Shown: positions 5,573-50,305 of the stretch, in pieces
How positions within the stretch are numbered: position 1 is the stretch's first letter
How the letters are laid out: each line of letters opens with the position of its first letter
From: Dyadobacter alkalitolerans DSM 23607
Lineage (GTDB): Bacteria; Bacteroidota; Bacteroidia; Cytophagales; Spirosomataceae
DNA: 64,000 nt
Assembly: GCF_000428845.1 (NCBI RefSeq)
Contig: NZ_AUAS01000017.1
Coordinates: 1 to 64,000, forward strand
Direction: 5' to 3'
Position numbers and translations under genes: made by a program
Notes under the pieces: model-generated
Told to the model about the DNA's origin: nothing
The model's database searches: none
The model's input: only the letters and a program-made list of their open reading frames with translations

Positions 5573-5870
5573 GGCTGGTTTTGGGGTTGCTAAGGGCTAA
5601 ATCCCTTTATTGGCAATTGTTTGGAAAGATAGCAGAAGCATTTTGAAATTTAATTTTATAACCCGTTAAAAAGTCAGTATTTTACCCTAATAAGCATAAA
5701 AATGGCTTGTCCGCACCCGAACAAAATTGTCCGTTATCGGACATTCAAATTGGTTTTAAATAAGCTTAATGCATTGATATTTAGTATTTTGTACGGCATC
5801 GCCGCCTTTGGCATAGGGATTGGATAACATAGATCAAAGTTTAACAGCGAATCCAATCACCAACAATATA
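5573..5870. promoter_or_regulatory. Divergent intergenic region with control module 1 (tandem operators)
   Basis: Two 16-bp palindromes lie head to tail at a 20-bp period: TGTCCG-N4-CGAACA at 5708-5723 and TGTCCG-N4-CGGACA at 5728-5743. A TTGATA box follows at 5774, 46 bp after the second palindrome starts. Two GGCAT elements lie at 5795 and 5810; the latter, TGGCATA-N4-TTGG, has the GG-to-GG spacing of a -24/-12 promoter but lacks the usual -12 GC. A transcript from it would begin near 5830-5835, about 37 bases before ATG 5871. No terminator-like extension surrounds these palindromes, and no same-strand gene ends upstream, so an operator role is the simplest reading. The part next to the regulator gene (5573-5700) is AT-rich with no firm motif. 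Confidence 0.65.
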
Positions 5871-7181
5871 ATGGAAGTCAAAACACCTAACTCATCCAGC
5901 ACCAGTAACAACGGTTTCACCGGGGGCTCGACAATGGACAAAATCAAACCAAAGAAATTCTGGAACACACAACGCATTGGTATAATCGCAGGCAGCACGC
6001 TGCTGGTTGCCTTTTTAGTATATCAATTTTTCTTTGCTGATAAACGCAGCAAGCTGAATGTTGAGCAAGATAAACTGACAGTTTCAACTGTTAAACAAGG
6101 TAAATTCGACGAATTCATTGTGGTAACCGGCGTTGTGCAGCCATTGAAAACCATTCAATTGGATGCCATTGTAGGCGGATATGTTACCGAGAAACTCATT
6201 GAAGGCGGTAACATGGTAAAACAAGGCGATGTACTTTTAAGATTGGAAAACCAAAACCTGAAACTGAGCTTTCTACAATCGGAAACGGAGGCGAGCCGAC
6301 TGGTAAATGATCTTCAAAATACACGCCAGAGCTTGCGTATTGCCCGATTTAACCTGCAAAAGACATTAAGCGAGCTTGATTTCCAGATCGATCAGGCGAA
6401 GGATGCACATGAGCGGAATGCCAAGCTTTACAAGGATAAAGTGATTCCGGATGCGGATTATTTGAAAACAAAAAGAGAATTTGACCGCCTGACCAAGCAG
6501 CGCGAGATTGAAGTTGAATCACAGAAATATCAGGAAGAAAACTCCAAAATGCAGATTGCGCAGCTGGAAGGAACATTGGCCAGCACGCAGAAGAACGTAA
6601 ATCTTTGGAGACAAACGCTTGAAAACCTGTCGGTTAAGGCACCAGTTTCCGGCTTGCTTTCTTCTATGAATGTGGAAGTAGGATCGAACATTAACCAGGG
6701 CCAGAACATTGGACAAATTGATGACCTGAACGGTTTCAAGATGCGTGTAAGTGTAGACGAACATTACATTTCGAGGATATTTGCTGGCTTGATGGGTTCC
6801 ATGGAATTCAACGGAAAAGATTACGGATTAAAGATCATCAAAATCTATCCGGAGGTTCTGAGCGGAAGATTTGAAGTGGATATGCAATTTGATAAAGGCG
6901 CTCCTGAATTGATCAAGAGAGGCCAATCGGCTCCGATTCGTCTGCAATTGGGACAACCTTCACAAGCAACATTGCTTCCGGTGGGTGGATTCTTCTCCGA
7001 AACTGGTGGAAACTGGGTATATGTGGTGGGTGAGGACGGCAAGCGTGCCTCAAAACGTAAAATCACATTGGGCCGTAAAAACCCTGAGTATTTCGAGGTT
7101 CTGGAAGGTCTGCAGCCAGGTGAGAAAGTGATCACGAGCTCATACGAGAACTTCGGGGATAATGAAGTGCTGGAATTTTAA
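5871..7181 (+). CDS. HlyD/MacA-type periplasmic adaptor subunit
   Basis: ATG 5871 is chosen over an in-frame TTG at 5820, because the TTG falls inside the probable promoter; ATG 5934 is a further possibility. The product of 436 residues has an N-terminal inner-membrane helix (about residues 33-53, RIGIIAGSTLL onward), a lipoyl-like half-motif, and a long charged coiled-coil hairpin in the middle. The second half-lipoyl (VKAPVSGLLSSMNVEVGS) and beta-barrel and membrane-proximal domains follow. This is the architecture of membrane-fusion proteins that join an inner-membrane ABC pump to an outer-membrane channel. It is the first gene of the array, 86 bp before the ATPase gene. No TolC-type channel gene is nearby. 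Confidence 0.88.
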   Translation: MEVKTPNSSSTSNNGFTGGSTMDKIKPKKFWNTQRIGIIAGSTLLVAFLVYQFFFADKRSKLNVEQDKLTVSTVKQGKFDEFIVVTGVVQPLKTIQLDAIVGGYVTEKLIEGGNMVKQGDVLLRLENQNLKLSFLQSETEASRLVNDLQNTRQSLRIARFNLQKTLSELDFQIDQAKDAHERNAKLYKDKVIPDADYLKTKREFDRLTKQREIEVESQKYQEENSKMQIAQLEGTLASTQKNVNLWRQTLENLSVKAPVSGLLSSMNVEVGSNINQGQNIGQIDDLNGFKMRVSVDEHYISRIFAGLMGSMEFNGKDYGLKIIKIYPEVLSGRFEVDMQFDKGAPELIKRGQSAPIRLQLGQPSQATLLPVGGFFSETGGNWVYVVGEDGKRASKRKITLGRKNPEYFEVLEGLQPGEKVITSSYENFGDNEVLEF

Positions 7182-7267
7182 TAATCAGACTCTATTAGTA
7201 ATTAATTCAATCAATCATAAACTGGCCCATAGCCCTCAGCTGAAAGCCGATAGCCAAAGAAAACCCA

Positions 7268-7945: not shown

Positions 7946-7955
7946 ATCAGGCGCC

Positions 7956-8379: not shown

Positions 8380-10809
8380 ATGCTGCAAAATTATATCAAG
8401 ATCGCGTGGCGGAACCTGCGTAAGCATAAATTTTACTCATTCCTGAACATTTTCGGATTGGCACTCGGCCTTGCAAGCTGTTTGCTGATTACGCTTTATG
8501 TATTGGATGAGCTCAGTTTTGATAGATCTTTTGAACACGCAGACCGCATTCACAGGGTCAACGCAGACATTCGTTTCGGTGGGGCAGATATGGCGCTTGC
8601 CGTTGCGCCCGATCCGCTTGCATTTACATTAAAAAAAGATTATCCACAAATTGAGCAGGTTGTGCGGCTTCGTGAGAATGGAAGTCAGCTTGTACGCCGG
8701 TCGGAGGGCACCGAGAACCTGAAAGAAGATCAGGTATGCTTCGCAGATTCAACATTTTTCAAGGTATTTTCTCTTCCATTACTCATGGGAGATCGGGAAA
8801 AGGCCTTAAAAGATCCTTATACTGTGGTGATTTCCGAAAATGATGCGCTCAAATATTTCGGGAAGGAAAATCCGATGGGTAAGGGCTTAACAATTGATAA
8901 TGACCAGACGTACACGGTAACAGGCGTGATGCAGGACATTCCTGCACAATCACATTTGCGGGACATGAATATGCTGCTATCCATGAGCTCTAATCCGGAA
9001 AGTCGGTTGAATGGCTGGGGAAGCCATAATTTTAACACTTATTTATTGCTTAAAGAAGGTGTCGATCCCAGGCAGTTCGAAAAGAACTTCGAAACTGTTT
9101 TGCAAAAATACACAGCTAAATGGCTGGTAAGCTTCATGGGTGCCTCGCTGGATGAGATTCGCAAGTCGGGCAGCTACTTGCGTTACTCGCTTATTCCGCT
9201 GACTGAAATCCATTTGCATTCAGACCGGACGGCTGAGATCAATGTGAATGGCAATATTCAATACGTATATATATTCGCGGTTGTTGCTTTGTTCCTCCTG
9301 ACCATTGCCTGTGTCAACTTTATGAACCTGGCAACGGCCCGCTCTTCGAACCGGGCAAAAGAAGTCGGCGTCCGCAAAGCGCTGGGTTCGGAGAGATCTT
9401 CGCTGGTCAACCAGTTTCTCACGGAATCGGTCATGCTTAGCTTTTTTTCACTGGCGTTGGCTGTTGCGCTAGCTTATTTCGCTCTTCCGCTTTTCAATAA
9501 TCTGGCAGGCAAGCAAGTCGAATTTCCGATTGGGGAAGTTGGATTTTGGATAACTTTATTGATTACGGGCGGTGCTGTGGGTGTTCTTGCAGGGAGCTAT
9601 CCTGCATTTTTCCTTTCGGCCTTCAACCCACTGAAAGTTTTGAAAAACAGCGTAGAGCTGCAAGGAAAGGGAGGCTATCTGCGCAATGCGCTCGTTGTTT
9701 TTCAATTTGTGATTTCGGTCATGCTTATTGTCGGCACCGGTGTTATTTATCGTCAGCTTGATTTTATACAAACTAAAAAGCTGGGCTTTAATAAGGATCA
9801 GATGTTGATCGTGAACGACGCTTATGCTCTCGATAATAAGGCTAAGGCATTCAAGGAGCAGGTAATGCGCCTTCCGAATGTGGAAAATGCCACGGTAACA
9901 AGCTTCCTGCCCACGCCATCGTCACGTACCGATAATACATTTTTTCCGGCTGGCCAGATGCAGCAAGACAAGGGCATTAGTATGCAGAACTGGGCTGTTG
10001 ATTATGATTTTATAAATACTATGGGATTGCAAATGACAAACGGTCGACCGTTTCAGGAAGAATTCCCATCGGATTCATCCGGCATTATCATCAACGAGGC
10101 CGCTGCAAAAGTGCTCGGGTATGCTGAGCCCGTTGGAAAGAAGATATTCGGATATGCAGATCAGGAGCTAAAACAACGCATTGATTATACGATCATTGGC
10201 GTTGTAAAAAACTTTCACTTTGAATCATTAAAGAAAAATATCGGCGCATTGAGCCTGGTGCTTTCGCGCAGCAACGGAACAGTCGTTTTCAAATTGAATG
10301 GCAGCGATGTGGCCCAAACCGTTGATCAGGTGGAGCAGCTCTGGAAAAAAATGGCTCCGGGGCAACCGTTCAGTTACCGGTTTATGGACGAAGATTTTAA
10401 CAATGTTTACCGCAGCGAGCAGCGCGTAGGGCAGATTTTCATCACATTCGCAACGATTTCGATCATTATCGGCTGTCTGGGATTGTTCGGTTTGTCAGCT
10501 TACACGGCTGAGCGGCGCACCAAGGAAATAGGTGTGAGAAAGGTGCTTGGTGCGAGCGTTGCCAACATTGTGGCTTTGCTTTCAAAAGAATTTTTAAGGC
10601 TCATCATTATCGCCATCCTGATCGGCATTCCTATCGCCTGGTTTGGGATGAACCAATGGCTCAACGATTTTGCCTATCACGTAGACCTGGCCTGGTGGAT
10701 GTTCCTGGCAGCCGGGGCGATTGCTATCACCATCGCGTTGCTCACCGTCAGTTTTCAAAGCATTAAGGCCGCACTTATGAATCCGGTGAGAAGCCTGCGG
10801 AGCGAGTAG
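8380..10809 (+). CDS. FtsX/MacB-type ABC permease 1
   Basis: 809 residues, and the reference for the set. There are two MacB_PCD-FtsX halves fused in one chain. Half 1: helix at about 21-42, a large periplasmic domain (about 45-290), then helices near 295-315, 349-372 and 388-412. Half 2: helix near 436-458, a second periplasmic domain, then helices near 685-707, 737-757 and 770-792. Each half has the cytoplasmic coupling motif after its first post-domain helix (KEVGVRK at 327-333, KEIGVRK at 715-721), expected to contact the ATPase. One chain thus supplies both transmembrane halves of a pump. Such type VII ABC permeases move substrates out of the periplasm or transmit force rather than pumping across the inner membrane. 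The C-terminus LMNPVRSLRSE is a family hallmark. Substrate unknown. Confidence 0.9.
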   Translation: MLQNYIKIAWRNLRKHKFYSFLNIFGLALGLASCLLITLYVLDELSFDRSFEHADRIHRVNADIRFGGADMALAVAPDPLAFTLKKDYPQIEQVVRLRENGSQLVRRSEGTENLKEDQVCFADSTFFKVFSLPLLMGDREKALKDPYTVVISENDALKYFGKENPMGKGLTIDNDQTYTVTGVMQDIPAQSHLRDMNMLLSMSSNPESRLNGWGSHNFNTYLLLKEGVDPRQFEKNFETVLQKYTAKWLVSFMGASLDEIRKSGSYLRYSLIPLTEIHLHSDRTAEINVNGNIQYVYIFAVVALFLLTIACVNFMNLATARSSNRAKEVGVRKALGSERSSLVNQFLTESVMLSFFSLALAVALAYFALPLFNNLAGKQVEFPIGEVGFWITLLITGGAVGVLAGSYPAFFLSAFNPLKVLKNSVELQGKGGYLRNALVVFQFVISVMLIVGTGVIYRQLDFIQTKKLGFNKDQMLIVNDAYALDNKAKAFKEQVMRLPNVENATVTSFLPTPSSRTDNTFFPAGQMQQDKGISMQNWAVDYDFINTMGLQMTNGRPFQEEFPSDSSGIIINEAAAKVLGYAEPVGKKIFGYADQELKQRIDYTIIGVVKNFHFESLKKNIGALSLVLSRSNGTVVFKLNGSDVAQTVDQVEQLWKKMAPGQPFSYRFMDEDFNNVYRSEQRVGQIFITFATISIIIGCLGLFGLSAYTAERRTKEIGVRKVLGASVANIVALLSKEFLRLIIIAILIGIPIAWFGMNQWLNDFAYHVDLAWWMFLAAGAIAITIALLTVSFQSIKAALMNPVRSLRSE

Positions 10810-10922: not shown

Positions 10923-13286
10923 ATGCTCAAAAACTATCTGAAAATCGCCTGGCGGAACTTGCTTAAAAACAAGACATTCAGCCTCATCAACATTCTTGGT
11001 CTGGCGCTAGGAATGGCTTGCAGCTTGCTCATTATGCTGTGGGTTCAGGATGAAATTAAGATGGATCGGTTCCATAAAAACGACGCCAGGATTTTCACCG
11101 TCATGGAAAATCAGCATTACTCTGGTGTGATTAATACGTTCGCTTCGACGCCTGGAATTCTCGCTGATAACATTGTAAAAGACATTCCCGAAATTGAAAT
11201 GGCCAGCCAATGGCTTTGGGAAGAAGCGCCTGTGCTTGCAGTTGGGAACAATTTTGATAATGAGAAAGGGCGCTATGTGCAAGGTGATTTTCTCAGAATA
11301 TTCTCTTTCGACCTGAGCCAGGGCGATGCAAACACAGCATTGAAACGTCCGGATGGAATTGTAATTTCTCAAAAGCTTGCCCAGAAATACTTCAAAGGCC
11401 AGGACCCGATGGGAAAAACGATGCGCATTGACAACAAAGATGACGTCATCGTGACCGGCGTTTTGAAAGAAATCCCATCCTATTCATCCGTCAAGTTCGA
11501 CTTTTTGATGAGTTATGACCGCTGGATCAAAGACAAGTCCTGGGCCAAAGAATGGGGAAATAATGGTCCGCGGTGCATAGTAATGCTGGATAAAAATGCA
11601 GATATCGATAAGGTGAACGCCAAGATCAAAGGTTATCTCAAAACCAAAAATAAAGACAGCAACATTGATCTGTTCCTGATCAACTACGGGCAATCTTATC
11701 TTTATTCTAAATGGGATTCGGGTAAACAAAATGGCGGTAGGATAGAATATGTGCGTTTGTTTACTATTGTAGCGATTTTTATTCTGGTTATTGCCTGCAT
11801 TAACTTCATGAATCTGGCCACTGCGCGTTCGGTGAAACGGGCTAAGGAGGTGGGCTTGCGAAAAGTGGTCGGTGCTTATAAATCCAGTCTTGTAGGGCAG
11901 TTTATGGGCGAATCCATTCTCATTACATTGCTGGCACTTGCTTTCGCATTGATCCTGGTCGGGGTTCTGCTGCCTTCTTTCAACACGCTCACCGAAAAGC
12001 AGCTTTCGCTGAACTTCTTCAATCCTACTTTGCTGCTTTTGCTGTTGGTTTTGACAACTATAACCGGCGTTTTTGCAGGAAGTTATCCGGCATTGTTCAT
12101 GTCTTCGCTTAACCCCGTCGTGGTGCTCAAAGGAGCGTTGAAATTCAAGCCGAGTGCTGCTTATTTTCGTCAGGGGCTGGTTGTTTTCCAGTTCGGTCTG
12201 TCGATTTTGCTGATCTTGTCCATGATTGTTGTCTATCGGCAAATTGAATTTATTCAGAACAAAAATTTAGGGTTTAACAGGGATAATCTGTTATACATCA
12301 GTGATATAGAAAAAGGGATGCCGAAGAATTTTGCATCATTCAAACAGGTTTTGGAAAATGAACCCGGCATTAAAGCAGTCACCGTATCGCAGGCCAGTCC
12401 TATGGATTTTGGCAGTTCAACCATGGGCGTAACGTGGCCCGGCAAGGATACCACGCAACGGATGTTGTTCAATGTCAACCCCGTTGGATTTGATTTTGTA
12501 AAAACGATGGGCGTTAAGTTGCTGGACGGCAGAGATTTTAACCCGCAGTTTGGCACGGATACATCCAATTATCTGATCAATGAAGCGGCCGCCCGAAAAA
12601 TCGGCTATAAGGATCCGGTGGGGAAAGAGCTAACCATGTGGGGTAAAAAGGGCAAGATTATAGGGCTCATGAAAGATTTTCACATTGGCTCGCTGCACGT
12701 TGCCATTGAACCGCTCATTGTAAATCTTCAACCTAAAACTGAAAACTGGGGCGCCGCACTCATCATGACCGAAGCCGGAAAAACCAAGCAGGCCATCGCG
12801 AGCGTTGAAAAGGTTTACAGACAGTATAATCCAGGATTTCCATTCAAATATCACTTCGCGGATGAGGAATTTGGCAATCTTTACAAAGCCGAGAACGTCG
12901 TTAGCAAGCTCTCCAATTACTTTGCCTTTCTTGCCATTTTCATTTCGTGCTTAGGTTTGTTTGGGCTGGCGGCTTTTACTGCGGAGCAACGGACCAAGGA
13001 AATCGGCGTGCGCAAAGTGTTGGGAGCAAGTGTTACCAATCTTGTAGGAATGCTTTCTATGGATTTTGTAAAACTGGTAGCCATCGCCGCATTAATCGCC
13101 TTTCCAATAGCCGGTTACTTCCTCCAAAACTGGCTCGAAAAATACGCTTACCGCATCAAAATGGAATGGTGGTATTTCGTAGCAGCCGGAATAGCAGCCC
13201 TCCTGATCGCACTTTTCACGGTTAGCTTCCAGGCCATAAAAGCAGCTTTAATGAACCCGGTAAAATCCTTGCGCGGTAACGATTAG
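10923..13286 (+). CDS. FtsX/MacB-type ABC permease 2
   Basis: 787 residues, the shortest of the set. The coupling motifs are KEVGLRK and KEIGVRK. The end of the second periplasmic domain (FADEEFGNLYKAENVV) groups it with permeases 7 and 14. The C-terminus is SLRGND instead of the usual SLRSE or SLKSE. The 113-bp gap before it is the longest inside a permease run and holds no control palindrome. Its TAG stop overlaps the TAA stop of the convergent vapC gene, so this is where the array was interrupted or where a readthrough barrier now exists. Confidence 0.9.
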   Translation: MLKNYLKIAWRNLLKNKTFSLINILGLALGMACSLLIMLWVQDEIKMDRFHKNDARIFTVMENQHYSGVINTFASTPGILADNIVKDIPEIEMASQWLWEEAPVLAVGNNFDNEKGRYVQGDFLRIFSFDLSQGDANTALKRPDGIVISQKLAQKYFKGQDPMGKTMRIDNKDDVIVTGVLKEIPSYSSVKFDFLMSYDRWIKDKSWAKEWGNNGPRCIVMLDKNADIDKVNAKIKGYLKTKNKDSNIDLFLINYGQSYLYSKWDSGKQNGGRIEYVRLFTIVAIFILVIACINFMNLATARSVKRAKEVGLRKVVGAYKSSLVGQFMGESILITLLALAFALILVGVLLPSFNTLTEKQLSLNFFNPTLLLLLLVLTTITGVFAGSYPALFMSSLNPVVVLKGALKFKPSAAYFRQGLVVFQFGLSILLILSMIVVYRQIEFIQNKNLGFNRDNLLYISDIEKGMPKNFASFKQVLENEPGIKAVTVSQASPMDFGSSTMGVTWPGKDTTQRMLFNVNPVGFDFVKTMGVKLLDGRDFNPQFGTDTSNYLINEAAARKIGYKDPVGKELTMWGKKGKIIGLMKDFHIGSLHVAIEPLIVNLQPKTENWGAALIMTEAGKTKQAIASVEKVYRQYNPGFPFKYHFADEEFGNLYKAENVVSKLSNYFAFLAIFISCLGLFGLAAFTAEQRTKEIGVRKVLGASVTNLVGMLSMDFVKLVAIAALIAFPIAGYFLQNWLEKYAYRIKMEWWYFVAAGIAALLIALFTVSFQAIKAALMNPVKSLRGND

Positions 13287-16392: not shown

Positions 16393-16505
16393 AGTCCATT
16401 ACCGAACAAAAGTGTCCGAAACCGGACACTTTTTTTTGTTTTAAATCAGATATAATAGATTGATAATGAGTATTATATGATGCATATGCGTGGTGTGGTA
16501 TAATT
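16393..16505 (+). promoter_or_regulatory. Control module 2 (before permease 4)
   Basis: Tandem palindromes lie at a 20-bp period: a degenerate left copy AGTCCA-N4-CGAACA at 16393-16408 and the full TGTCCG-N4-CGGACA at 16413-16428. TTGATA follows at 16460, 47 bp after the full copy starts. The promoter-proximal TGGCAYA element of modules 3-5 is not recognisable here; TGGTGTGGTATAATTA at about 16491-16506 is the nearest candidate. This is the least well-preserved module at its promoter end. Confidence 0.6.
16408..16437 (+). terminator. Terminator of the permease 1-3 unit, built on the operator palindrome
   Basis: The palindrome is extended to an 11-bp perfect stem (AAAAGTGTCCG / CGGACACTTTT) with an AAAC loop, followed by a run of T. 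It lies 25 bp after the permease 3 stop. The same bases therefore form an intrinsic terminator and the core of control module 2. Confidence 0.75.
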
Positions 16506-16534
16506 ATTCAATAGACTAAAATATCTATTTAGCT

Positions 16535-19069: not shown

Positions 19070-19092
19070 AATAACGATCAGCTGACATTCCC

Positions 19093-21513: not shown

Positions 21514-21566
21514 TGCGGGATATAGCGCATTTGAACATTTTCCATTGAAAAAGCAATAAAACAGCC

Positions 21567-23981: not shown

Positions 23982-24006
23982 CGATTCACCCAAAACTGCA
24001 CAGGCA

Positions 24007-27076: not shown

Positions 27077-27124
27077 AGCCTCGCTAGGTCTTGGAGAAAA
27101 TATGCTTCAAGACTTAGCGAGGCT
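27077..27124. terminator. Bidirectional terminator hairpin
   Basis: A 17-bp stem with a single mismatch (AGCCTCGCTAGGTCTTG / CAAGACTTAGCGAGGCT) has a 14-base loop, and TTTTT follows a few bases later on the + strand. It contains the stop codon of the minus-strand gene ending at 27107. Confidence 0.7.
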
Positions 27125-27625: not shown

Positions 27626-27632
27626 GCTCCGC

Positions 27633-28184: not shown

Positions 28185-28337
28185 GCATTTTCTTTGCTCA
28201 TCTGGTTATTAGACTGCTGCTACGGAGCAATGGTTACAGTGGAATGGGTTAATTTTTAAAAATATTTTCCCGAAAATCTGTAACCACTGTTGAGCTTGTA
28301 TAGTCCAATATGTACAACTTTTCAACCAGACATTATC

Positions 28338-28664: not shown

Positions 28665-28862
28665 CATCTAGAATAATTTGGCATAGTACCTTGCATCACA
28701 AAGTACCTTTGTATATATTTGTTGCGTTGCCTGGTGTGAGTTAGGCGTTGGAGCGTCAGCAGCAAATTCTAAGATCATTTAGTAGCGGAAATTTTAAAAG
28801 AGTGGAAACTCTTACCGGAATTCCTATGCCTTTTTTTATCTGTTAGCCATAATTAATTAGCC

Positions 28863-31358: not shown

Positions 31359-31446
31359 CGAACAACCATGTCCGTTATCGGACAATTGCTTCTGCTTTAA
31401 ATTATTGATAGTCAATTGTTTATGCAGATGGCATACATTTATTGTC
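31359..31446 (+). promoter_or_regulatory. Control module 3 (before permease 8)
   Basis: The full palindrome TGTCCG-N4-CGGACA is at 31369-31384, with only the right half (CGAACA, 31359-31364) of the upstream copy kept at the 20-bp period. TTGATA follows at 31405, 36 bp after the palindrome starts, one helical turn shorter than in the other four modules. TGGCATA at 31429 and TTG at 31442 precede ATG 31472 by about 30-40 bases. TTGATAGTCAA is itself near-palindromic and overlaps an IHF-like half site. The palindrome has no terminator extension here. Confidence 0.65.
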
Positions 31447-33874: not shown

Positions 33875-33902
33875 AATTTAAACCTGATCATATACATAAC
33901 AC

Positions 33903-36314: not shown

Positions 36315-36326
36315 ATAAACAAGCCA

Positions 36327-38702: not shown

Positions 38703-38728
38703 ACAGGCCCAGCCAAAAACCTGAACCT

Positions 38729-41161: not shown

Positions 41162-41173
41162 ATGCAAACAGAT

Positions 41174-41220
41174 AAAAAATCAGCTGTTCGATTTCGGACA
41201 GCTGATTTTTTATTTTTAGT
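41174..41220 (+). terminator. Terminator of unit 3, built on the operator palindrome
   Basis: A 17-bp stem with one mismatch (a G-U pair in RNA), arms AAAAAATCAGCTGTTCG and CGGACAGCTGATTTTTT with an ATTT loop, followed by TATTTTT. It encloses the module 4 palindrome. Confidence 0.75.
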
Positions 41221-41280
41221 TATAAATATTTGATAATCAATCGTTTGTTTTCTATTTGAAATTTGGCACATATGTTTTGA
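41185..41280 (+). promoter_or_regulatory. Control module 4 (before permease 12)
   Basis: Palindrome TGTTCG-N4-CGGACA at 41185-41200; no second copy 20 bp upstream. The TTGATA box at 41230 is 45 bp downstream of the palindrome start and is a perfect palindrome with centre (TTGATAATCAA). Bases 41235-41247 (AATCAATCGTTTG) match the E. coli IHF consensus WATCAANNNNTTR exactly. TGGCACA at 41264 with TTG at 41277 forms the promoter-proximal element. A leader hairpin (AGCGCTC-agc-GAGCGCT, 41291-41307) lies before ATG 41336. Confidence 0.65.
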
Positions 41281-41335: not shown

Positions 41336-43717
41336 ATGCTCAGAAACTATCTAAAAATTGCCCTTCGGAATTTGTGGAAGCACAAAGTGTTCTCTTTTAT
41401 CAATATCATGGGACTGACGGTCGGGATGTCGGCCTGTTTCCTGATATTTCTTTATGTGAATTTCGAACTGAGTTATGACGCGTTCAATACCAAGTCTGAT
41501 CGCATTTACAGGCTGGTAACCGATATCAAAACGCCTTCGGAGACTATTAATGCGGGTATTACATCTTGGGCGTTTGCACCGAACATTAAAAGTGATTTTC
41601 CCGAAGTGGAAGCTTTTACGCGGGTGAGCAGCGGCAGCTTTTTAGTAAGAAAAGGGGATATTAAATTCCAGGAGGAAAGAACGCTTTTTGCAGATTCAAC
41701 CCTGTTCCGGGTTTTTGATTTTAAACTAATCAAAGGAGATCCTAAAACCGCTTTGAAGGAACAATTAAGCATTGTTTTTACAGAAAAAGCGGCTAAGAAA
41801 TATTTCGGAGACGCAGATCCCATTGGCCAGACATTGTTGCTTTCGGGCGAGGGCCTACCAGCTAAGGTAACGGGCGTAATGAAGGATATTCCTGAAAATT
41901 CCCAGATCAAAGGCGATATGATCCTGTCGATGACAACCATGACGCAGCGCTTCAATAAAGGACTGGACGATCAATGGGGCAACTTCGGCGCTACAACTTA
42001 TTTGTTATTAACTCCCGGTGCAACGAAAACGGCGCTTGAACGCAAATTTCCTGCATTCTTGGAAAGACGCGCAGGGAAAACAATGAAAGAGTCACAAATG
42101 TATTACAAGCTTTTCTTGGAGCCGCTTCGCGATGTTTACCTGAAATCGACCCGGGACACCGAAGAGTCGGGCAGCATGAATAATGTGTACGTGTTCTCGG
42201 TTGTGGCTATTTTTATTTTGCTGATTGCCTGCATTAATTTTGTGAATCTTACCACGGCGCGTTCGGTGGAGCGGGCAAAGGAAGTAGGGATACGTAAGGT
42301 TGTGGGCGCGCCTAAGATGCTTGTAGCGAGGCAGTTTATTAGTGAATCCATTCTTTTATGCTTGATCGCATTTGTCTTCGCCGTTGTGCTTTCCACGGCA
42401 TTGATCCCGCTTTTCAATAACCTTTCCGGTAAAATCATCAGCACCGGAATTCTGGATAACCTGCCTTTTGTAGCTGGTATGTTCGTCGCTGCTGTGATCA
42501 TCGGGATTGTAGCAGGGATATATCCGGCTTTGGTTTTATCTTCATTCGAGCCCGTGGTTGTATTGAAAGGTCGTTTTACGACAAGTGTGAAGGGGATTTT
42601 GTTGAGAAAATCATTGGTAACCATTCAATTTGCGATATCGATCGCATTGATCATTGCGACCATTGTGGTTTACATCCAGATGGATTTCATGCGGAACCGC
42701 GATCTTGGGTTTAGTAAAGACCAGATGATGATCGTGAACTCGCAGGGCGATCCCAAAAAAGACGCATTCAAGCAATCCCTGGCGGACTTGACTGGCGTAA
42801 AGTCGACAGCAACATCTTCCAGCGTGCCGGGCAGCGGTAATCCGGGCGCATACTCAGAAATTGAGAACAAAAGCGGGGATTTGCAGATCGCAAACCTGGA
42901 CCTGTATTTCGTTGACTTTGATTATATCCCGCAGTTTGGCCTGAAAATGGCTGCCGGACGTCCGTTTGCAAGGGATTTTGGAACCGATACTACGCAGGCA
43001 ATGGTGATGAACGAAGCCGCCGTGAAGTTGTTTGGTTACAGCTCCCCGGAAGAAGCCATTGGCCGCAGGTTTAAGCAATGGGGCCGTGAGGGCAAGATTG
43101 TGGGGGTTGTCAAAGATTTTCACTTCCGGTCTTTGCAGGAAACGATTAAGCCATTGACCATGCGCATCGAGCCGCGCGGCAGCGAGTTGGTTTCCATCAA
43201 AATCGATGGAAGCAACATTAAGGAAACCGTTGCGGCTGTGGAGCAAAAATGGAAGACGGTCATGCCAAACCGGCCATTCAGTTATTATTTTATGGATGAA
43301 TTTTTCGACCGGCAGTACAGGAGTGAAGAGCGTTTTGAAAAGCTTTTTTTCAATTTTGCTATCCTCGCTATCTTCATTTCATGTCTCGGATTGCTTGGCC
43401 TGGCCTCTTACAGCACCATGCAGCGCACAAAGGAAATCGGCGTGCGGAAGGTAATGGGCGCCTCCACAGGCAGCATTGTGGGATTACTGTCCAAAGATTT
43501 TTTGAAATTAGTGCTCATTGCATTTGTGATCGCCTCACCAATAGCATATTACGGAATGTACCGCTGGCTGGAAAACTTTGCCTATAAGACTGACATTTAC
43601 TGGTGGATCTTCGCAGTTGCAGCCTTTTTATCAGCGGCCATCGCATTCGCCACCGTGAGTTTTCAGAGTATCAGAGCGGCGCTGATGAATCCGGTGAAGA
43701 GTCTTCGGAGTGAATGA
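41336..43717 (+). CDS. FtsX/MacB-type ABC permease 12
   Basis: 793 residues, first of unit 4. The sequence after helix 2 is VNLTTARSVERAKEVGIRKVVGAPKML; the second motif is KEIGVRKVMGAS. The second periplasmic domain ends FMDEFFDRQYRSEERF. The C-terminus is LMNPVKSLRSE. The 5' leader of about 55 bases contains a 7-bp hairpin that could affect translation. The gap to permease 13 is 34 bp. Confidence 0.9.
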   Translation: MLRNYLKIALRNLWKHKVFSFINIMGLTVGMSACFLIFLYVNFELSYDAFNTKSDRIYRLVTDIKTPSETINAGITSWAFAPNIKSDFPEVEAFTRVSSGSFLVRKGDIKFQEERTLFADSTLFRVFDFKLIKGDPKTALKEQLSIVFTEKAAKKYFGDADPIGQTLLLSGEGLPAKVTGVMKDIPENSQIKGDMILSMTTMTQRFNKGLDDQWGNFGATTYLLLTPGATKTALERKFPAFLERRAGKTMKESQMYYKLFLEPLRDVYLKSTRDTEESGSMNNVYVFSVVAIFILLIACINFVNLTTARSVERAKEVGIRKVVGAPKMLVARQFISESILLCLIAFVFAVVLSTALIPLFNNLSGKIISTGILDNLPFVAGMFVAAVIIGIVAGIYPALVLSSFEPVVVLKGRFTTSVKGILLRKSLVTIQFAISIALIIATIVVYIQMDFMRNRDLGFSKDQMMIVNSQGDPKKDAFKQSLADLTGVKSTATSSSVPGSGNPGAYSEIENKSGDLQIANLDLYFVDFDYIPQFGLKMAAGRPFARDFGTDTTQAMVMNEAAVKLFGYSSPEEAIGRRFKQWGREGKIVGVVKDFHFRSLQETIKPLTMRIEPRGSELVSIKIDGSNIKETVAAVEQKWKTVMPNRPFSYYFMDEFFDRQYRSEERFEKLFFNFAILAIFISCLGLLGLASYSTMQRTKEIGVRKVMGASTGSIVGLLSKDFLKLVLIAFVIASPIAYYGMYRWLENFAYKTDIYWWIFAVAAFLSAAIAFATVSFQSIRAALMNPVKSLRSE

Positions 43718-43751
43718 TTATTCAATGTGTGAATGAGTGAATTTATTTTTT

Positions 43752-46130
43752 ATGCTTCGGAATTATTTTAGGATTGCCTGGCGGAATTTGGTGAAGAATA
43801 AGGTCTACTCGGCTATCAATATGACCGGTCTGGGGATTGGTATGGCTGGGGCTATCATTATTTTTCAGCTGGTTTCCTATCATTTAGGTGTTGATAAGCA
43901 TCATCGGCAGGCGGATAAGATCTTCCGTATGGTGGTTGATCTGCATTTGGAGGATGGTTCCGTCGAGCATGAGAAGGGCTCGGCTTTTCCTTTGCATACG
44001 ACACTCAGGAAGGAGTTTGCAAATGTTTCGCATGCCGCTTACCTGGCTCAGCGTGAATTAACGCTCAGCATTGAGCAGGCCAACAATTCCAGGAAATTTT
44101 TTGAAAAATCATCAGCTGCTTTCACAGATTCTGAATTCTTTAAAATCTTTGATTATCATTTTGTTGCCGGTAATGCAGCAGTTTTGAACCTGCCGGGACA
44201 GGCCGTCCTGACGGAGCGTTACGCAAAAAAATACTTTGGAAAATCAAATCCGATGGGCCGCCTGATCCGGATCAATAATGCTGAAAATGTCACAGTTGCT
44301 GGCGTTATCAAGGATTTTCCGGAGCAAACTGATTTCAAAAAAGACATCTTTGTTTCGCTTCAAACTTTAAAGAAGCTGATTCCCGAATATGGTTATGAAG
44401 ACTGGGGCTGGATCGATAGCAACCGGGAAACGTATGTGAGCCTGCGTTCCGAAGAAGATAAGGAAGCTTTGGAACAACAGCTAATCGCATTTGCGAAGAA
44501 GATTCACGGTGCGGACAGCAATGTGTTCCATTACCACTTGCAGCCGCTTGCAGACGTCCATTTCAACATCAGTTATGGTGGTAAGATTAAATACTACACC
44601 ATTATAATGCTTGCAACAGTTGGTTTGCTGCTGATACTCATTGCTTGTTTCAACTTTATTAACATTACAACCGCCCAATCTTTAAAGAGAAGCAAGGAAG
44701 TGGGAATCCGGAAAGTGCTTGGCGTTTCGCAATGGCAGGTGTTCTGGCTTTTTATTCATGAAGCCGCTTTGTTTACGGGCATATCATTCATTCTGGCCAT
44801 TCTGCTTTCCAAGTTGCTGATGCCAACAATCAGTAATTGGCTGGAAATCAATTTGGATATCAATGTATTTGCCGATTTTCAGCTGCTCGCATTCAGCCTT
44901 GCGCTGTTGATTTTTGTCGTGTGCATAGCAGGCATTTATCCCGCATTTGTTATCTCAAATTTAAATCCGGTCCGGGCGATCAAGGGTCTGGCGGTTGCTA
45001 ACGAGCGGGGTTCGTTTTCCGTGAGAAAGTCGCTTGTAGTAGTGCAATTCAGTATTTCCTTTGTTTTGATCGCTGTTTCAATGGTAGTCATTCTGCAATC
45101 CAGATATTTGAAAAATAAAGATTTGGGCTTAAACAAAGAGCTGATCCTGCATGTAGGACTGCCCGATACAGGAACTACTCAAATTGCAGCGCTAAGCAAC
45201 GAAATTCCTAGGATCAAAGAAGTTGCCAGCATATCCTTTTTTAGGAATCCACCTTCATCGCAAGCAGGCAATGGCGGCAGCATTAAATTTGAAAACCGCG
45301 ATTGGGAAAAGTTTGTGGCCCGGTCCAGAAGCGCGGATAACCATTACGTGGCAACTTACGGGTTGAAGCTTGTTGCCGGTCGCAATCCGATTCAGTCGGA
45401 TACGCTTCATGAATTGCTGATCAATAATAAGTTAGTAAGAGCATTGGGGCTGAAATCGCCTGAGGAAGCGTTGAACAAGCGTCTGGTGGTGGGTGATATG
45501 GATAATAAAACGGGCGTGATCGTTGGTGTTTTGTCCGATTTCAACAATGCAGATCTATATTCCAACATTGAACCAACCGTCATTTATGCATCTAAAAAGC
45601 ATTACCGCAGCGCCGGGATCAAGCTGCAAAATTTAAGTGCTTCGACGATTCCGGACATTATGAAAGTCTGGCAGAAACACTTTCCGGAATATGTGTTCCA
45701 ATATAGTTTTTACGACGAAGAAATAGCAGGATTTTACAAAAGAGAGGAGTTAGCCTCCAATCTTACCTCCATGTTTGCGCTCTTATCTGTATTCCTGTCC
45801 TGCCTCGGACTTTTCGGTCTGGCGCTGTTCTCCATTGAACAGCGCACCAAAGAAATCGGCATCCGCAAAGTTTTGGGCGCATCCGTCGCCAGCATAACCA
45901 CCTTGTTATCCATAGATTTTTTGCGGCTGGTGGGCATAGCAATCATTATAGCGAGCCCGGTTTCCTATTATTTTATGAACAAATGGTTGCAGGATTTCGC
46001 ATTCAGGATCGACATTGAATGGTGGATCTTTGCTGTTTCCGCACTGCTGGCCGTAGCCATCGCTTGTCTCACCGTCGGCTATCAGTCCATCAAAGCCGCG
46101 CTTGCGAATCCGGTGAAAACATTGAGATAA
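43752..46130 (+). CDS. FtsX/MacB-type ABC permease 13
   Basis: ATG 43752 (MLRNYFRIAWRNL) is used; the in-frame start at 43737 adds five residues without support. 792 residues. Subgroup of permeases 6 and 11 (INITTAQSLKRSKEVGIRK; DEEIAGFYKREELA). It is the most divergent in the first half: helix 1 is GIGMAGAIIIFQLVSYHLG, and the usual Glu-Leu-Ser-Phe-Asp after it is replaced by LGVDKHH. The C-terminus stops at ANPVKTLR, without the common Ser-Glu. The gap to permease 14 is 33 bp. Confidence 0.9.
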   Translation: MLRNYFRIAWRNLVKNKVYSAINMTGLGIGMAGAIIIFQLVSYHLGVDKHHRQADKIFRMVVDLHLEDGSVEHEKGSAFPLHTTLRKEFANVSHAAYLAQRELTLSIEQANNSRKFFEKSSAAFTDSEFFKIFDYHFVAGNAAVLNLPGQAVLTERYAKKYFGKSNPMGRLIRINNAENVTVAGVIKDFPEQTDFKKDIFVSLQTLKKLIPEYGYEDWGWIDSNRETYVSLRSEEDKEALEQQLIAFAKKIHGADSNVFHYHLQPLADVHFNISYGGKIKYYTIIMLATVGLLLILIACFNFINITTAQSLKRSKEVGIRKVLGVSQWQVFWLFIHEAALFTGISFILAILLSKLLMPTISNWLEINLDINVFADFQLLAFSLALLIFVVCIAGIYPAFVISNLNPVRAIKGLAVANERGSFSVRKSLVVVQFSISFVLIAVSMVVILQSRYLKNKDLGLNKELILHVGLPDTGTTQIAALSNEIPRIKEVASISFFRNPPSSQAGNGGSIKFENRDWEKFVARSRSADNHYVATYGLKLVAGRNPIQSDTLHELLINNKLVRALGLKSPEEALNKRLVVGDMDNKTGVIVGVLSDFNNADLYSNIEPTVIYASKKHYRSAGIKLQNLSASTIPDIMKVWQKHFPEYVFQYSFYDEEIAGFYKREELASNLTSMFALLSVFLSCLGLFGLALFSIEQRTKEIGIRKVLGASVASITTLLSIDFLRLVGIAIIIASPVSYYFMNKWLQDFAFRIDIEWWIFAVSALLAVAIACLTVGYQSIKAALANPVKTLR

Positions 46131-46163
46131 TAAATGAAGTGATCATCACTAAACAGGTCCGAC

Positions 46164-48581
46164 ATGATCCGAAACTATCTGAAAATCGCACTTAGGAATC
46201 TGCTGAAAAACAAAGGTTACTCAGTAATTAACATTGGTGGATTAGCTATCGGCATGGCGGTTGCCATGCTTGCCGGGCTGTGGATTTATGATGAATTATC
46301 ATTTAATAAAAATCATGAAAACTATGACCACATAGGCATGGTTGTCGTGGATCAAATGTTTGGGGGTGAACTGCAAAAGTCCAAATCGGTGCCTTACCCG
46401 TTGGTAGCAGAGTTGAAGAGCAATCATAGCGAGAGTTTCAGGCATATTGTGCCATCTACGCATACCAGTGAGCATATTCTCACCGTAGGTGATAAGAAAC
46501 TGAACAGAAAAGGCCAGTTCATTGCTGCGGAAGGTCCCGAAATGTTGTCCCTGGATATGCTCAGCGGCACCCGGGCGGGATTGCAGGATCAGCAGTCTGT
46601 AATGTTATCGGCATCGGCGGCAAAAGCGCTTTTCGGGGCGAAAGATCCGTTGGACAAGGTGGTTACGGTTAATGCTGACCTGCATTTGAAAGTCTCGGGC
46701 ATCTATGCAGATTTTCCTCGTAATTCGCAGTTTGACGATGTTCAGTTTTTGGGAAGCTGGGATTACTTTATTGCCAAAAATAGTTATATGCGTGAAAAGC
46801 AGTGGGATAACCATGCTTTGACCATGTATGTACAAATCAAGCGGGGGATCGATTTTGCGAAGGCTTCGGCGGCGATCAGGGATTCGGAGTTAAATGTCAT
46901 CCGGAACATGGATAACATGAAGAACGAGGTGGCTACCAACCCTCAGATGTGGATACACCCCATGAGAGACTGGCATTTGTATTCCAGTTTTAAGAATGGT
47001 GAAGTCAGTTCAGGTCCGGTACAATTTGTATGGCTTGTGGGCATAATCGGCTTTTTCGTTCTTTTTCTGGCATGCATTAACTTTATGAATCTGAGCACGG
47101 CCCGCTCAGAAAAGCGTGCGAAAGAAGTAGGCGTTCGCAAGGCAATCGGTTCGCTGCGGTTGCAATTGATCGGCCAGTTTTTCACGGAGTCGTTTTTGAT
47201 TGTAATGCTTGCATTTGGGTTTGCCCTACTGATGTTGGATTTGTCGTTGCCGTGGTTTAACGATCTGTCTGCCAAGGCAATGACCCTGCCGTTTAGCAAC
47301 TCCTATTTTTGGTTGACGAGCATTGCATTCATCCTCATAACAGGCATTTTGGCAGGAAGTTATCCCGCATTCTATCTCACTTCTTTCCAGCCTGTGAAAG
47401 TGTTAAAGGGAAGCATTCTCCACGTCGGCCGATTTGCTTACATGCCTCGTAAAGTGCTGGTTGTTATACAGTTTACAGTTTCAATCGCGCTTGTGATCTG
47501 CACCATTATTATTTATAGCCAGGTAAGGTTTGCCAAGAACCGTCCGGTGGGTTACGCGCGTGAGGGATTGCTGATGATTGAAATGAAGTCGGATGATTTT
47601 TATGCAAAATCGGCCCTCATCGGCGCCGAATTGAAAAAGACAGGCGTTGTGAAGGAAGTCGCTTTGTCCCAAAGCCCGGTTACCGACGTCTGGTCAGCAA
47701 ACGGAGGTTTCAGCTGGGAAGGTATGACGATGGAAAATCCGCCGGGATTCAGTACGTTGACTGTCTCACATGAGTATGCAGACGTTGTGAACTGGAAATT
47801 TGTTGCAGGCCGTAATTTTTCCAAAGATATGGCCTCCGATTCTGCCGGTTTCATTATTAACGAGACAGCTGCCAGGTTGCTGGGTTTTAAGCAGCCAGTC
47901 GGGCAAACCGTAAGTTGGCAGAGCCAATGGATGACCGATAATATTAAAAAGAATTTCAGAATTTTGGGTGTGGTTGAAGACATGGTGATGGAATCCCCGT
48001 TCCAGAAAGTTGCGCCTAGCGTCTTTTTCCTTTTTGGATCTCCCAATTGGGTCAATATCAGGCTGAACGATCAGACCAGCGCCAGCACTGCGTTACCGAA
48101 GATCGAAGCGGTTTTCAGGAAGCTGACGCCTACTGTGCCGTTTGAATACAAATTTGCCGACCAGGAATATGATGCTAAGTTCCGGTCCGAAGAGCGTATG
48201 GGCAAGCTGGCTGGTTTCTTTGCTTCGCTTGCAATATTTATCTCCTGCCTCGGGCTCTTCGGGCTGGCATCATTTGTGGCCGAGCAACGGACGAAAGAAA
48301 TAGGGATCCGCAAAGTTTTGGGCGCTTCCGTCCGTAACCTCTGGCAAATGTTGTCGCAGGATTTTGTGAGGCTTGTGATCATTGCGGTTGTAATCGCGAC
48401 ACCGGTCGCATGGTATGCGATGCACGAATGGTTGATGAAATACGCTTATCGCACCGAAATTTCGTGGTGGATATTTGCTGGTACAGGCGTAGGTGCATTG
48501 GTAATCACGTTATTAACCGTCAGCTATCAGGCCGTTCGTGCAGCATTGCTCGATCCTGTGCAAACATTGAAAAATGAGTAG
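46164..48581 (+). CDS. FtsX/MacB-type ABC permease 14
   Basis: 805 residues, last of unit 4 and nearest relative of permease 7 by its helix 1, MNLSTARSEKRAKEVG marker and DQEYDAKFRSEERM segment. The coupling motifs are KEVGVRKAIGSLRLQL and KEIGIRK. The C-terminus is LLDPVQTLKNE, where the usual Asn before Pro is Asp. The Wzi-like gene starts 100 bp later with no terminator hairpin in between, so it may be read through from this unit. Confidence 0.9.
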   Translation: MIRNYLKIALRNLLKNKGYSVINIGGLAIGMAVAMLAGLWIYDELSFNKNHENYDHIGMVVVDQMFGGELQKSKSVPYPLVAELKSNHSESFRHIVPSTHTSEHILTVGDKKLNRKGQFIAAEGPEMLSLDMLSGTRAGLQDQQSVMLSASAAKALFGAKDPLDKVVTVNADLHLKVSGIYADFPRNSQFDDVQFLGSWDYFIAKNSYMREKQWDNHALTMYVQIKRGIDFAKASAAIRDSELNVIRNMDNMKNEVATNPQMWIHPMRDWHLYSSFKNGEVSSGPVQFVWLVGIIGFFVLFLACINFMNLSTARSEKRAKEVGVRKAIGSLRLQLIGQFFTESFLIVMLAFGFALLMLDLSLPWFNDLSAKAMTLPFSNSYFWLTSIAFILITGILAGSYPAFYLTSFQPVKVLKGSILHVGRFAYMPRKVLVVIQFTVSIALVICTIIIYSQVRFAKNRPVGYAREGLLMIEMKSDDFYAKSALIGAELKKTGVVKEVALSQSPVTDVWSANGGFSWEGMTMENPPGFSTLTVSHEYADVVNWKFVAGRNFSKDMASDSAGFIINETAARLLGFKQPVGQTVSWQSQWMTDNIKKNFRILGVVEDMVMESPFQKVAPSVFFLFGSPNWVNIRLNDQTSASTALPKIEAVFRKLTPTVPFEYKFADQEYDAKFRSEERMGKLAGFFASLAIFISCLGLFGLASFVAEQRTKEIGIRKVLGASVRNLWQMLSQDFVRLVIIAVVIATPVAWYAMHEWLMKYAYRTEISWWIFAGTGVGALVITLLTVSYQAVRAALLDPVQTLKNE

Positions 48582-48681
48582 GGTGGGGAGCACCGTTTAA
48601 TAACATTGAAATAATTTTTGGGTAGAAAGTTTTAGTACAAACGTCTTTATCTTGCAAGGTAATCCTTCATATAATTGCGTT

Positions 48682-50184
48682 ATGCTTAGGTTTAAGGCCA
48701 CTTTTTACATTGCAATCTGCCTTTTCACATTTCAATGTCTGCGGGTGAACGCGCAAAATGGAAATGCTTTGCCCTTTGGTTTGAAAGCAGGGCTTGAAGC
48801 CGGTGCATACATTTCCTCCCCCGAAAAAACTCCGTTTTGGCTGCGTACCAACCAGTTCGGCATTGTGCCTAACACCGGCCCTGCGGGACAAATCCAGGGC
48901 ACGATTCGAAAAGACTATGTATTTTTTGACAGCCTTTCTAACCGTCCGCAAAAAACAGATTGGGGATTTGCTTTAAATCCTGTCCTCAACTACAATGAGC
49001 AGGATCAGTTTAAGGTTCTGTTGCCGGAAGCGCATGTGAAGGCGAGGTTCAAAATGCTGGAAATTTATGCAGGAAGAAGGCGTGAAATGATGGGACTGGG
49101 CGATACGACATTATCATCCGGGTTTTATGCAGGCTCGGGCAATGCCCTGCCTATTCCAAAGGTCCAGATCGGAACAATCAGCTTCGTTCCCTTAAAATTT
49201 ACGCGCAACTTTCTAGCTGTTCACGCAGGCTTCGCGCATGGCTGGTTTGATACGGATTATATAAAGGGCGTGAGACTTCATCAGAAGTTTATGTATCTGC
49301 GACTGGGCAAGCCCATGTCAAAAAGTAAATTTTATTTCGGCTTAAATCATAATGTGCTTTGGGCCGGGCATTCCGAGGAGCTCAAAAAGCATCCTGAACT
49401 GGCAGTGAACGGCGAATTGCCATCGTCCTGGAAGTTCTATCCCAATGTGGTGCTGGCTTACACTCCCAAAAACTGGTTCACCAAAAACGGTTACGGTTCT
49501 TTTGACAGTTACCGTTTAGGTAATCATTTGGGAAGCTATGATTTTGCGTTTGAAACTAAGGTTGGCGACAAGCAGCTGTTTGTGTATCATCAGCATCCGT
49601 TCGAAGATGTATCGAGTATGCTTTTCAAGAATGTGCCGGATGGTTTGTATGGTATTAATCTAAAAATGAATTCATTACAGAATAATGTCGGCTTTGCCCT
49701 GTCGCGGGTTACATTAGAATTCTTGTCCACAAAAGACCAGTCGGGATCCACATTTTACATTCCCGGAAGCACATATCAGGGCGCGGATAATTATTTCAAC
49801 CACTCTCAATATTCCAAAGGCTGGTCTTATTTCGACCGGACCGTGGGCACGCCGTTTATTGTGCCTGGTAAGGATATGGACCAGTCAAAGAAGACGAGTA
49901 CACGCTATTTTCCCAGCAACCGTGTGAATGTTTGGTATGCAGGCGTGCAGGGAGGCTGGGGGAATGTGCTTGCGCTTACATTGAAGGTTTCGTATAGCCA
50001 AAATTACGGGATGCCGGGCGAAAATTTCAAGCCGGTTCGCGGGCAGTTATCCACTTATTTAGCCGGCGAATACGCATTTCCACATTTGAAAAAAACCAGT
50101 CTGACAGCAAAATTCGGGCTTGATAATGGCAGTTTGTTTGTCGATTCTGCGGGCGGTTATTTCGGCATTAAAAGAACCTGGTAG
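48682..50184 (+). CDS. Capsule assembly Wzi-family outer-membrane protein
   Basis: ATG 48682 (MLRFKATFYIAICLFTFQC) is used, giving a standard signal peptide ending NAQ; the upstream TTG at 48652 would add residues before it. 500 residues, matching the Capsule_assembly_Wzi family: an 18-stranded outer-membrane barrel that binds surface polysaccharide in E. coli K30. Aromatic-rich strand pairs run through the chain (RTNQFGIVP, GFAHGWFDTDY, FYFGLNHNVLW, YSKGWSYFDRT), and it ends in an aromatic residue (RTW) as outer-membrane barrels do. It sits between permease units 4 and 5; it has no control palindrome of its own upstream. Confidence 0.8.
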   Translation: MLRFKATFYIAICLFTFQCLRVNAQNGNALPFGLKAGLEAGAYISSPEKTPFWLRTNQFGIVPNTGPAGQIQGTIRKDYVFFDSLSNRPQKTDWGFALNPVLNYNEQDQFKVLLPEAHVKARFKMLEIYAGRRREMMGLGDTTLSSGFYAGSGNALPIPKVQIGTISFVPLKFTRNFLAVHAGFAHGWFDTDYIKGVRLHQKFMYLRLGKPMSKSKFYFGLNHNVLWAGHSEELKKHPELAVNGELPSSWKFYPNVVLAYTPKNWFTKNGYGSFDSYRLGNHLGSYDFAFETKVGDKQLFVYHQHPFEDVSSMLFKNVPDGLYGINLKMNSLQNNVGFALSRVTLEFLSTKDQSGSTFYIPGSTYQGADNYFNHSQYSKGWSYFDRTVGTPFIVPGKDMDQSKKTSTRYFPSNRVNVWYAGVQGGWGNVLALTLKVSYSQNYGMPGENFKPVRGQLSTYLAGEYAFPHLKKTSLTAKFGLDNGSLFVDSAGGYFGIKRTW

Positions 50185-50200
50185 GAAGTTTTTTAAGGGC

Positions 50201-50305
50201 TGTTCAAAGGCGAACAAAGTTGTCCGATTTCGGACAACTTTGTTCGCCTTTTTGTATATAAGAATTTGATAACTAATTGGTTAAGTTTTGGCATAAGTTT
50301 GTTGC
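50201..50305 (+). promoter_or_regulatory. Control module 5 (before permease 15)
   Basis: Tandem palindromes lie at a 20-bp period: TGTTCA-N4-CGAACA (50201-50216) and TGTCCG-N4-CGGACA (50221-50236). TTGATA follows at 50266, 45 bp after the second copy starts. TGGCATA at 50289 with TTGC at 50302 forms the promoter-proximal element, about 30 bases before ATG 50333. GG-to-GC spacing is 2 bp longer than a canonical -24/-12 promoter. TAAGTTTG at 50294 also fits the Bacteroidota -7 box TAnnTTTG, so a housekeeping promoter is an alternative. Confidence 0.65.
50206..50253 (+). terminator. Terminator of the Wzi-like gene, built on the operator palindrome
   Basis: A perfect 21-bp stem (50206-50226 / 50231-50251) with an ATTT loop and T-rich end starts 22 bp after the stop codon. 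It fully contains the inner palindrome of module 5. Confidence 0.8.

Follow-up and report, generated by a model that had tools for sequence, protein, structure and literature searches.

Large families of duplicated orphan permeases occur in soil and water bacteria; to our knowledge, neither a partner ATPase nor a function has been assigned to them. The first 64,000 nucleotides of contig NZ_AUAS01000017.1 from Dyadobacter alkalitolerans DSM 23607 (here called the window; C16:1–64000 of a genome of 6.29 Mb, whose assembly is 99.97% complete) contain an array of such permease genes, with short palindromes in front of its units. This raises the question of what the palindromes are for. A preliminary description had taken them for tandem enhancer sites of an NtrC-type regulator encoded beside the first of them, and the array for one locally encoded regulon. 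From the sequence evidence it appears very probable that they belong to a two-component sigma-54 regulon, comprising about 18 promoters, about 29 orphan permeases resembling the "acidobacterial duplicated orphan permeases" (ADOP), one adaptor, two ATPases and TolC. The sites, promoter-like elements, phasing, conservation, co-occurrence and target genes were computed directly.

Palindrome modules in the window

A pattern search of the window for TGTYCG-N4-CGRACA found exact copies at 5708, 5728, 16413, 31369, 41185 (the TGTTCG copy) and 50221, and thus recovered all five palindromes of the preliminary description at their positions. The second copy reported 20 bp upstream in three cases was likewise present: distal copies stand exactly 20 bp before the proximal ones at 5708 (no mismatch), 16393 (2 mismatches) and 50201 (1 mismatch). 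In front of 31369 the right half CGAACA alone was found as distal part, at 31359, as had been described; a distal copy was also looked for at 41185 and none was found. The predicted enhancer modules are:

5708–5723 and 5728–5743, + strand: module 1, tandem, both copies with the exact pattern
16393–16408 (weak distal copy) and 16413–16428 (proximal), + strand: module 2
31359–31364 (half-site) and 31369–31384 (palindrome), + strand: module 3
41185–41200, + strand: module 4, single palindrome
50201–50216 and 50221–50236, + strand: module 5, tandem

When up to two mismatches were allowed, the window yielded 15 matches against a shuffle mean of 7.1, which is mildly unusual (15 was reached in 2 of 100 shuffles). 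The other seven, with 2 mismatches (4902, 12766, 24754, 35521, 38151, 45796, 45826), all lie within open reading frames (ORFs), in agreement with the earlier statement that the window holds no further copies outside coding sequence. The signal in the window resides in the exact copies, not in the weaker ones.

Predicted sigma-54 promoters and phasing

One Sigma54_DBD match, rpoN, is present in the genome. Promoter matches were scored with weights based on the published sigma-54 consensus, behind all 18 modules found in this genome (see below). The sequence TGGCA follows the palindrome at about 30–80 bp in 12 of the 18 (shuffle mean 1.07, maximum 4), and the best sigma-54 matches sum to 180.3, as compared to 157.8 or less in 500 shuffles. 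The -24 positions fall 42–46, 52–54 and 64–68 bp after the palindrome, with a periodicity at 10–11.5 bp which none of 500 shuffles reached; 50221 is followed by near-equal boxes at 42 and 53. The clusters of the palindrome-to-TGGCA gap are about one helical turn apart.

Related genomes showed the same arrangement. All of 66 foreign adaptor promoters had a -24 gap of 54–56, 64–66 or 75–76 bp, and the gaps at five foreign permease heads were 33, 54, 66, 67 and 67. Among 140 matches listed from 23 other genomes, the gap was 51–55 bp in 86, 61–65 in 27, 46–50 in 6 and 56–60 in 6. For the following alignment and spacer counts, 66 relatives' sites with a target gene were used, sites without a target being dropped. 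Aligned on TGGCA alone, they showed at positions +11 to +13, which had not been selected for, T in 63, T in 57 and G in 58; the base after this TTG was C in only 8. A distal palindrome stands 19–23 bp upstream in 44 of these sites.

In the window the following elements were predicted:

5809–5824, + strand: -24/-12 promoter of the adaptor operon, TGGCATAGGGATTGGA
16496–16511, + strand: weak -24/-12-like box, TGGTATAATTATTCAA
31429–31444, + strand: -24-like box with a poor -12, TGGCATACATTTATTG
41235–41247, + strand: IHF-consensus-like sequence between enhancer and promoter, AATCAATCGTTTG
41264–41279, + strand: -24/-12 box, TGGCACATATGTTTTG
50289–50304, + strand: -24-like box, TGGCATAAGTTTGTTG; a near-equal match begins 11 bp earlier

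The TTG starts proposed by the ORF finder at 5820 and 31442 fall within predicted promoters; the likely starts are ATG 5871 and ATG 31472. IHF-consensus-like sequences (WATCAAN4TTR) occurred in 7 of 17 own spacers, that of C2:333 being left out (shuffle mean 0.15), and in 6 of the 66 relatives' spacers (0.33); a relaxed form was present in 13 of the latter (0.42). Sigma-70-type matches were not in excess in the scanned 14.6 kb (19 versus 23.0).

Regulator and kinase

The gene beside module 1 had been called an NtrC-type regulator, and its product contains the three defining domains, all above cut-off:

4205–5572, - strand: NtrC-type response regulator, presumed activator of the regulon; receiver (Response_reg), AAA+ sigma-54-interaction (Sigma54_activat) and Fis-type helix-turn-helix (HTH_8) domains

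It is 99% identical to its counterpart in Dyadobacter sp. CY347. A comparison of intergenic regions in relatives, which had been suggested as a check, showed that in 65 of the 80 loci with an orthologue, over identities of 50–99%, the tandem lies no more than 450 bp from the regulator. In Dyadobacter and its closer relatives the tandem spacing is 20 bp; Chitinophaga, Runella and Larkinella mostly have 21 bp, and 22 bp was seen once. The usual order is a kinase-regulator pair divergent from adaptor, ATPase and permeases. In two loci (L070, L073) the adaptor has moved away from the regulator and the tandem stands before the adaptor; in five others (L069, L071, L108–L110) no adaptor was recognised in the regulator flank and no site was found. 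The site accompanies the exporter when regulator and adaptor genes part.

According to a manual count, a histidine kinase is encoded in the regulator flank, mostly directly after the regulator, in 40 of 46 loci outside Dyadobacter and in none of 34 Dyadobacter loci. The kinase orthologue of strain DSM 23607 was found at C6:417109–418434 (73% identical, next best 27%), with a HATPase domain and a weak PAS domain. With -24/-12-type boxes, phased distances and conservation at the regulator locus, the NtrC/sigma-54 enhancer reading of the tandem sites is well supported.

Extent of the proposed regulon in the genome

In the whole genome the exact pattern occurs at 10 places, as compared to 2 for a reversed-pattern control; exact copies are thus not frequent at random intergenic sites. 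Had they been so, this would have spoken against the proposal, as the preliminary description had stated. Of the exact copies outside the window, three (C2:115605, C2:606515, C9:25678) precede further MacB/FtsX permease genes, and one (C3:550557) falls within an ORF.

For weaker sites, a weight matrix was derived from 47 unique palindromes which lie close to orthologues of the regulator in other species; the three nearest loci were excluded. The matrix was scored over the 350 bp in front of every duplicated-permease unit head, with 1000 dinucleotide shuffles each. The heads were hand-picked, leaving out single MacB-type proteins of about 410–490 amino acids, C5:369 (preceded by an ATPase gene), the frame C2:607, which is shortened, and genes lying within presumed units. 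A head at 28863 was rejected, since it encodes a TonB-type outer-membrane protein and has no site, which reduced the heads from 22 to 21. Before 16 of the 21 a site was present which at most 1 of 1000 shuffles reached, between -73 and -200 relative to the start positions used. C2:333 is a likely seventeenth, outside these 16, with a site of 16.0 bits and 2 mismatches found by inspection. A tandem at C16:87155, outside the window, precedes a second DarD-like ATPase and a TolC-type gene. In total, 18 modules were found; the presumed units together, whose boundaries we infer, contain about 29 permeases, of which the window accounts for 15. The scope of "one locally encoded regulon" was therefore too narrow: the module heads permease units on eight other contigs (C2, C3, C4, C8, C9, C10, C11, C18), and the ATPase-TolC operon lies on the same contig beyond the window. 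A PadR gene stands between module and permease in four own units (C8, C18, C11:12, C2:605).

A sequence model built from 21 foreign tandems (R1) was applied to 150 of 3640 candidates in this genome. It gave 12 matches up to E 10, of which seven lie on four of the five window modules and three at exporter heads outside the window (C16:87156, C2:334156, C11:21023).

Spread and targets in related genomes

A composite pattern, TGCCA-N36..66-palindrome, was found 10 times in this genome (control 1), nine of these being at exporter heads and one, C4:170529, not. In 41 related genomes it occurred 247 times against 24 for the control, with at least one match in 39. The mean was 7.3 in the 32 genomes with a regulator match (E ≤ 1e-110) and 1.3 in the 9 without. 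Ten genomes which were reached via Chitinophaga, Runella, Larkinella, Marivirga and Spirosoma loci contained 69 matches, control 8 (sites counted).

These data bear on the possibility that the sites are a real sigma-54 enhancer bound by another activator. The genome contains seven strong Sigma54_activat matches, and a paralogue on C5 is 46% identical to the regulator and has a related recognition helix. However, the module is conserved beside the regulator's orthologues over 50–99% identity and is commoner where the regulator is present, and no palindrome with fewer than 2 mismatches was found in the C5 cluster; another activator thus appears improbable. Across the family genomes, first-ranked regulator matches were at least 50% identical and second-ranked ones at most 46%. 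The C5 activator belongs to a paralogous kinase-activator pair (L037, C5:443500–455500), also with the loop GAFTDA, beside its own cluster of MacB-type permeases; this pair perhaps represents a sister regulon with a different enhancer.

Target genes were surveyed for 75 sites, namely the matches in six further genomes, including one Dyadobacter, and the odd own match, C4:170529. They head a permease (29), a PadR gene followed by a permease (23), an adaptor (7; two of these matches are distant, with 21 and 24% identity), an ATPase (1), a small protein (6) or none of these (9), so that 60 of the 75 head exporter genes. An initial BLAST of downstream ORFs had given exporter matches for 37, a low number, since permeases were masked by PadR genes and over-called starts; the 60 were obtained with PadR and small-protein seeds from the same loci and stop-to-stop frames. 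The phased distance classes, which were set after seeing a gap histogram that takes in the same genomes, hold 65 of 66 sites with a target and 3 of 9 without.

The PadR genes suggest another explanation, namely repressor operators or parts of sigma-70-family promoters, e.g., for PadR proteins, which head 23 of the 75 examined units and the four own units mentioned. The sites, however, lie about 45–66 bp ahead of the -24 box and not on it, phasing and the unselected -12 box accompany them, and most own heads have no PadR gene; this explanation is very unlikely.

The small protein after 6 of the 75 modules (L189, L190, L236, L243 and L245 among the loci; relatives G018 and G016) is secreted-looking and has about 125 amino acids, no Pfam match and a weak NCBIfam match to the BT3441 family. 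A role as cargo or accessory of the exporter is possible.

Overlap with terminator-like hairpins

Three window modules coincide with terminator-like hairpins:

16408–16433, + strand: on the proximal palindrome of module 2; 5 bp perfect extension, z -4.32, T-rich 3' side
41171–41214, + strand: on module 4; 20-pair stem with T-run, 13 bp extension, z -9.36
50207–50250, + strand: on the proximal and half of the distal site of module 5; 20-pair stem, 15 bp extension, z -8.44

The modules concerned begin less than 40 bp from the preceding stop codon, and T-rich sequence follows each hairpin. That the palindromes are merely intrinsic terminators between permease units would suit these three, but is scarcely credible, as the other 15 of the 18 own modules extend the palindrome by just 0–1 bp, module 1 sits between divergent genes, core sequence, 20–22 bp tandem and promoter phasing are conserved, and the scanned 14.6 kb show no excess of terminator-like sites (19 versus 17.1), though two module hairpins are the longest. 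Since the palindromes are extended into hairpins, the predicted functions of enhancer and terminator appear fused in the array. In relatives, an extension beside the upstream stop codon was not clear by eye and is not claimed. A separate hairpin with a stem of at least 8 base pairs is present in 7 of the 66 relatives' spacers (shuffle mean 0.5); these strong hairpins between enhancer and promoter (L179, L182, L186, L192, L194, L196, L231) are perhaps terminators of the preceding unit.

Evidence against a sigma-54 regulon

Several observations weigh against a sigma-54 regulon under this regulator. In the whole-genome search, copies with one mismatch showed no bulk excess (53 versus 65 in the control), so that the condition named above as speaking against the proposal does hold for them in bulk; weak copies are therefore credible by position only, and position relative to genes was used. 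No significant site was found before the heads C7:302, C2:286 and C2:428, and that before C2:237 is weak (11 of 1000 shuffles); upstream of the C2:237 permease (L023), TATATTTG resembles the Bacteroidota housekeeping -7 box. Model R1 missed 41185 and most single-site modules, and matched C3:550554 (inside an ORF) and C1:525983. The own boxes are weaker than the relatives', with poor -12 boxes at 16496, 31429 and 50289; for C2:333 the box lies at 46 in a scan ending at 80 and the best one in a wider scan at 83, outside the clusters. The promoters are related by descent, and their counts are not independent. Among the 9 genomes in which the regulator gave no match, some are small or incomplete (G025 66%, G035 63%). 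Two loci are exceptions: at L118, where no adaptor was recognised in the flank, a site stands beside the regulator, and at L125, which has a divergent ATPase, no site was found. Finally, the activator loop is GAFTDA, not the canonical GAFTGA, with F and T retained; across 80 orthologues it is GAFTDA in 77, GAYTDA in 2 and GSFTDA in 1, with D in all. Because of this departure, membership among the sigma-54 activators rests on the domains.

Genes and units of the window

The remaining genes of the array are, all on the + strand:

5871–7181: periplasmic adaptor (membrane-fusion protein), likely start ATG 5871; HlyD_3, HlyD_D23, DarC model 195 bits
7268–7945: ABC ATPase, presumed shared motor; ABC_tran, DarD model 274 bits
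7956–8369: small protein of 137 amino acids between ATPase and first permease, no family match
8380–10809, 10923–13286 and 13998–16382: permeases of unit 1, MacB_PCD matches; the place of the last in unit 1 is uncertain because a gap of 0.7 kb precedes it
16613–26385: unit 2, four duplicated permeases (16613, 19093, 21567, 24007)
31472–41161: unit 3, four duplicated permeases (likely start ATG 31472; 33903, 36327, 38699)
41336–48581: unit 4, three duplicated permeases (41336, 43737, 46164)
50333–52732: unit 5, one duplicated permease, ADOP model 313 bits

The array is interrupted at 27107–31298 by genes for an ECF sigma factor (27633–28184), an unassigned ORF, a DUF6249 protein and a TonB-type outer-membrane protein (28863–31298); no module was found in front of these genes. 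A gene for a Wzi-like outer-membrane capsule assembly protein (48652–50184) lies 70 bp after unit 4 and before module 5.

Proposed mechanism

Regulator binding, kinase pairing, activation, looping, termination and the sharing of ATPase and adaptor by the permeases are predictions which we derive from these data. The palindromes would be upstream activating sequences for the regulator, which the histidine kinase, encoded beside it in related genera and apart from it here, presumably phosphorylates. The regulator would then occupy one dimer site or two neighbouring ones, spaced by about two helical turns, and a DNA loop, probably assisted by a bend of IHF/HU type, would bring it to sigma-54 RNA polymerase at the -24/-12 promoter (TGGCAYR-N4-TTG). 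In this way orphan permeases throughout the genome could be switched on together with the adaptor, the two ATPases and the TolC channel, while three enhancer sites of the packed array would double as terminators of the preceding unit.

Comparison with known systems

NifA sites have the form TGT-N10-ACA. The arrangement described here resembles NifA/NtrC enhancers with IHF and sigma-54 promoters in its palindromic dimer sites of this form, the -24/-12 box, the face-of-helix spacing and candidate bend-type sequence in some spacers. It differs in its host, a member of the Bacteroidota, in the core TGTCCG-N4-CGGACA, in a -12 element that is TTG and rarely continues with C, in the position of the enhancer about 42–75 bp before the -24 box, in the overlap of some sites with terminator-like hairpins, and in the loop GAFTDA.

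With ADOP associated with PadR regulators (TIGR03434, TIGR03433) the permeases share the duplicated FtsX/MacB type, the mostly missing adjacent ATPase and, for some, the position behind a PadR gene; unlike these, they are placed under a sigma-54 module. Four window permeases scored 347, 308, 279 and 313 bits with TIGR03434, below the curated cut-off of 622, and are therefore called ADOP-like only. The exporters DarBCD and MacAB-TolC likewise consist of permease, ATPase, adaptor and TolC-type components; here, in contrast, about 30 permeases accompany one adaptor and two co-regulated ATPases, and all Dar equivalog models remained below cut-off (DarB 170 of 700, DarC 195 of 450, DarD 274 of 375 bits).

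For two Dyadobacter strains, PMC11573002 notes 28 and 33 copies, respectively, of the "acidobacterial duplicated orphan permease". Sigma-54 promoters ahead of FtsX-like (COG0577) permeases, with Bacteroidia among the enriched classes, had already been predicted and termed first evidence (PMC12316311, 2025), and the present promoters are alike; in the part of that article which was available, no enhancer sequence, named regulator or kinase, phasing, or shared ATPase-adaptor-TolC link was found, and its text mentions neither "Dyadobacter" nor "helical". The enhancer, the regulator and the permease-ATPase-adaptor-TolC regulon were not found described in the literature searched, which was mostly without subscription journals or the supplements of PMC12316311.

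Implications

As a tentative extension of the regulon, one might think of a plug-in exporter: about 30 interchangeable permeases, each with its own envelope stressor or cargo, would share an adaptor, an ATPase and TolC, one switch would make all of them, and palindromes in the array would double as enhancer and terminator. If true, this would provide a mechanism for ADOP-like permeases. The shared phased module indicates which parts should work together, i.e., the permeases, the adaptor, the two ATPases, TolC and the kinase-regulator pair. The Bacteroidota would thereby gain a sigma-54 regulon with a readable enhancer code, which is kept at the adaptor promoter from Dyadobacter to Chitinophaga and which carries, in its helical phasing, a built-in test.

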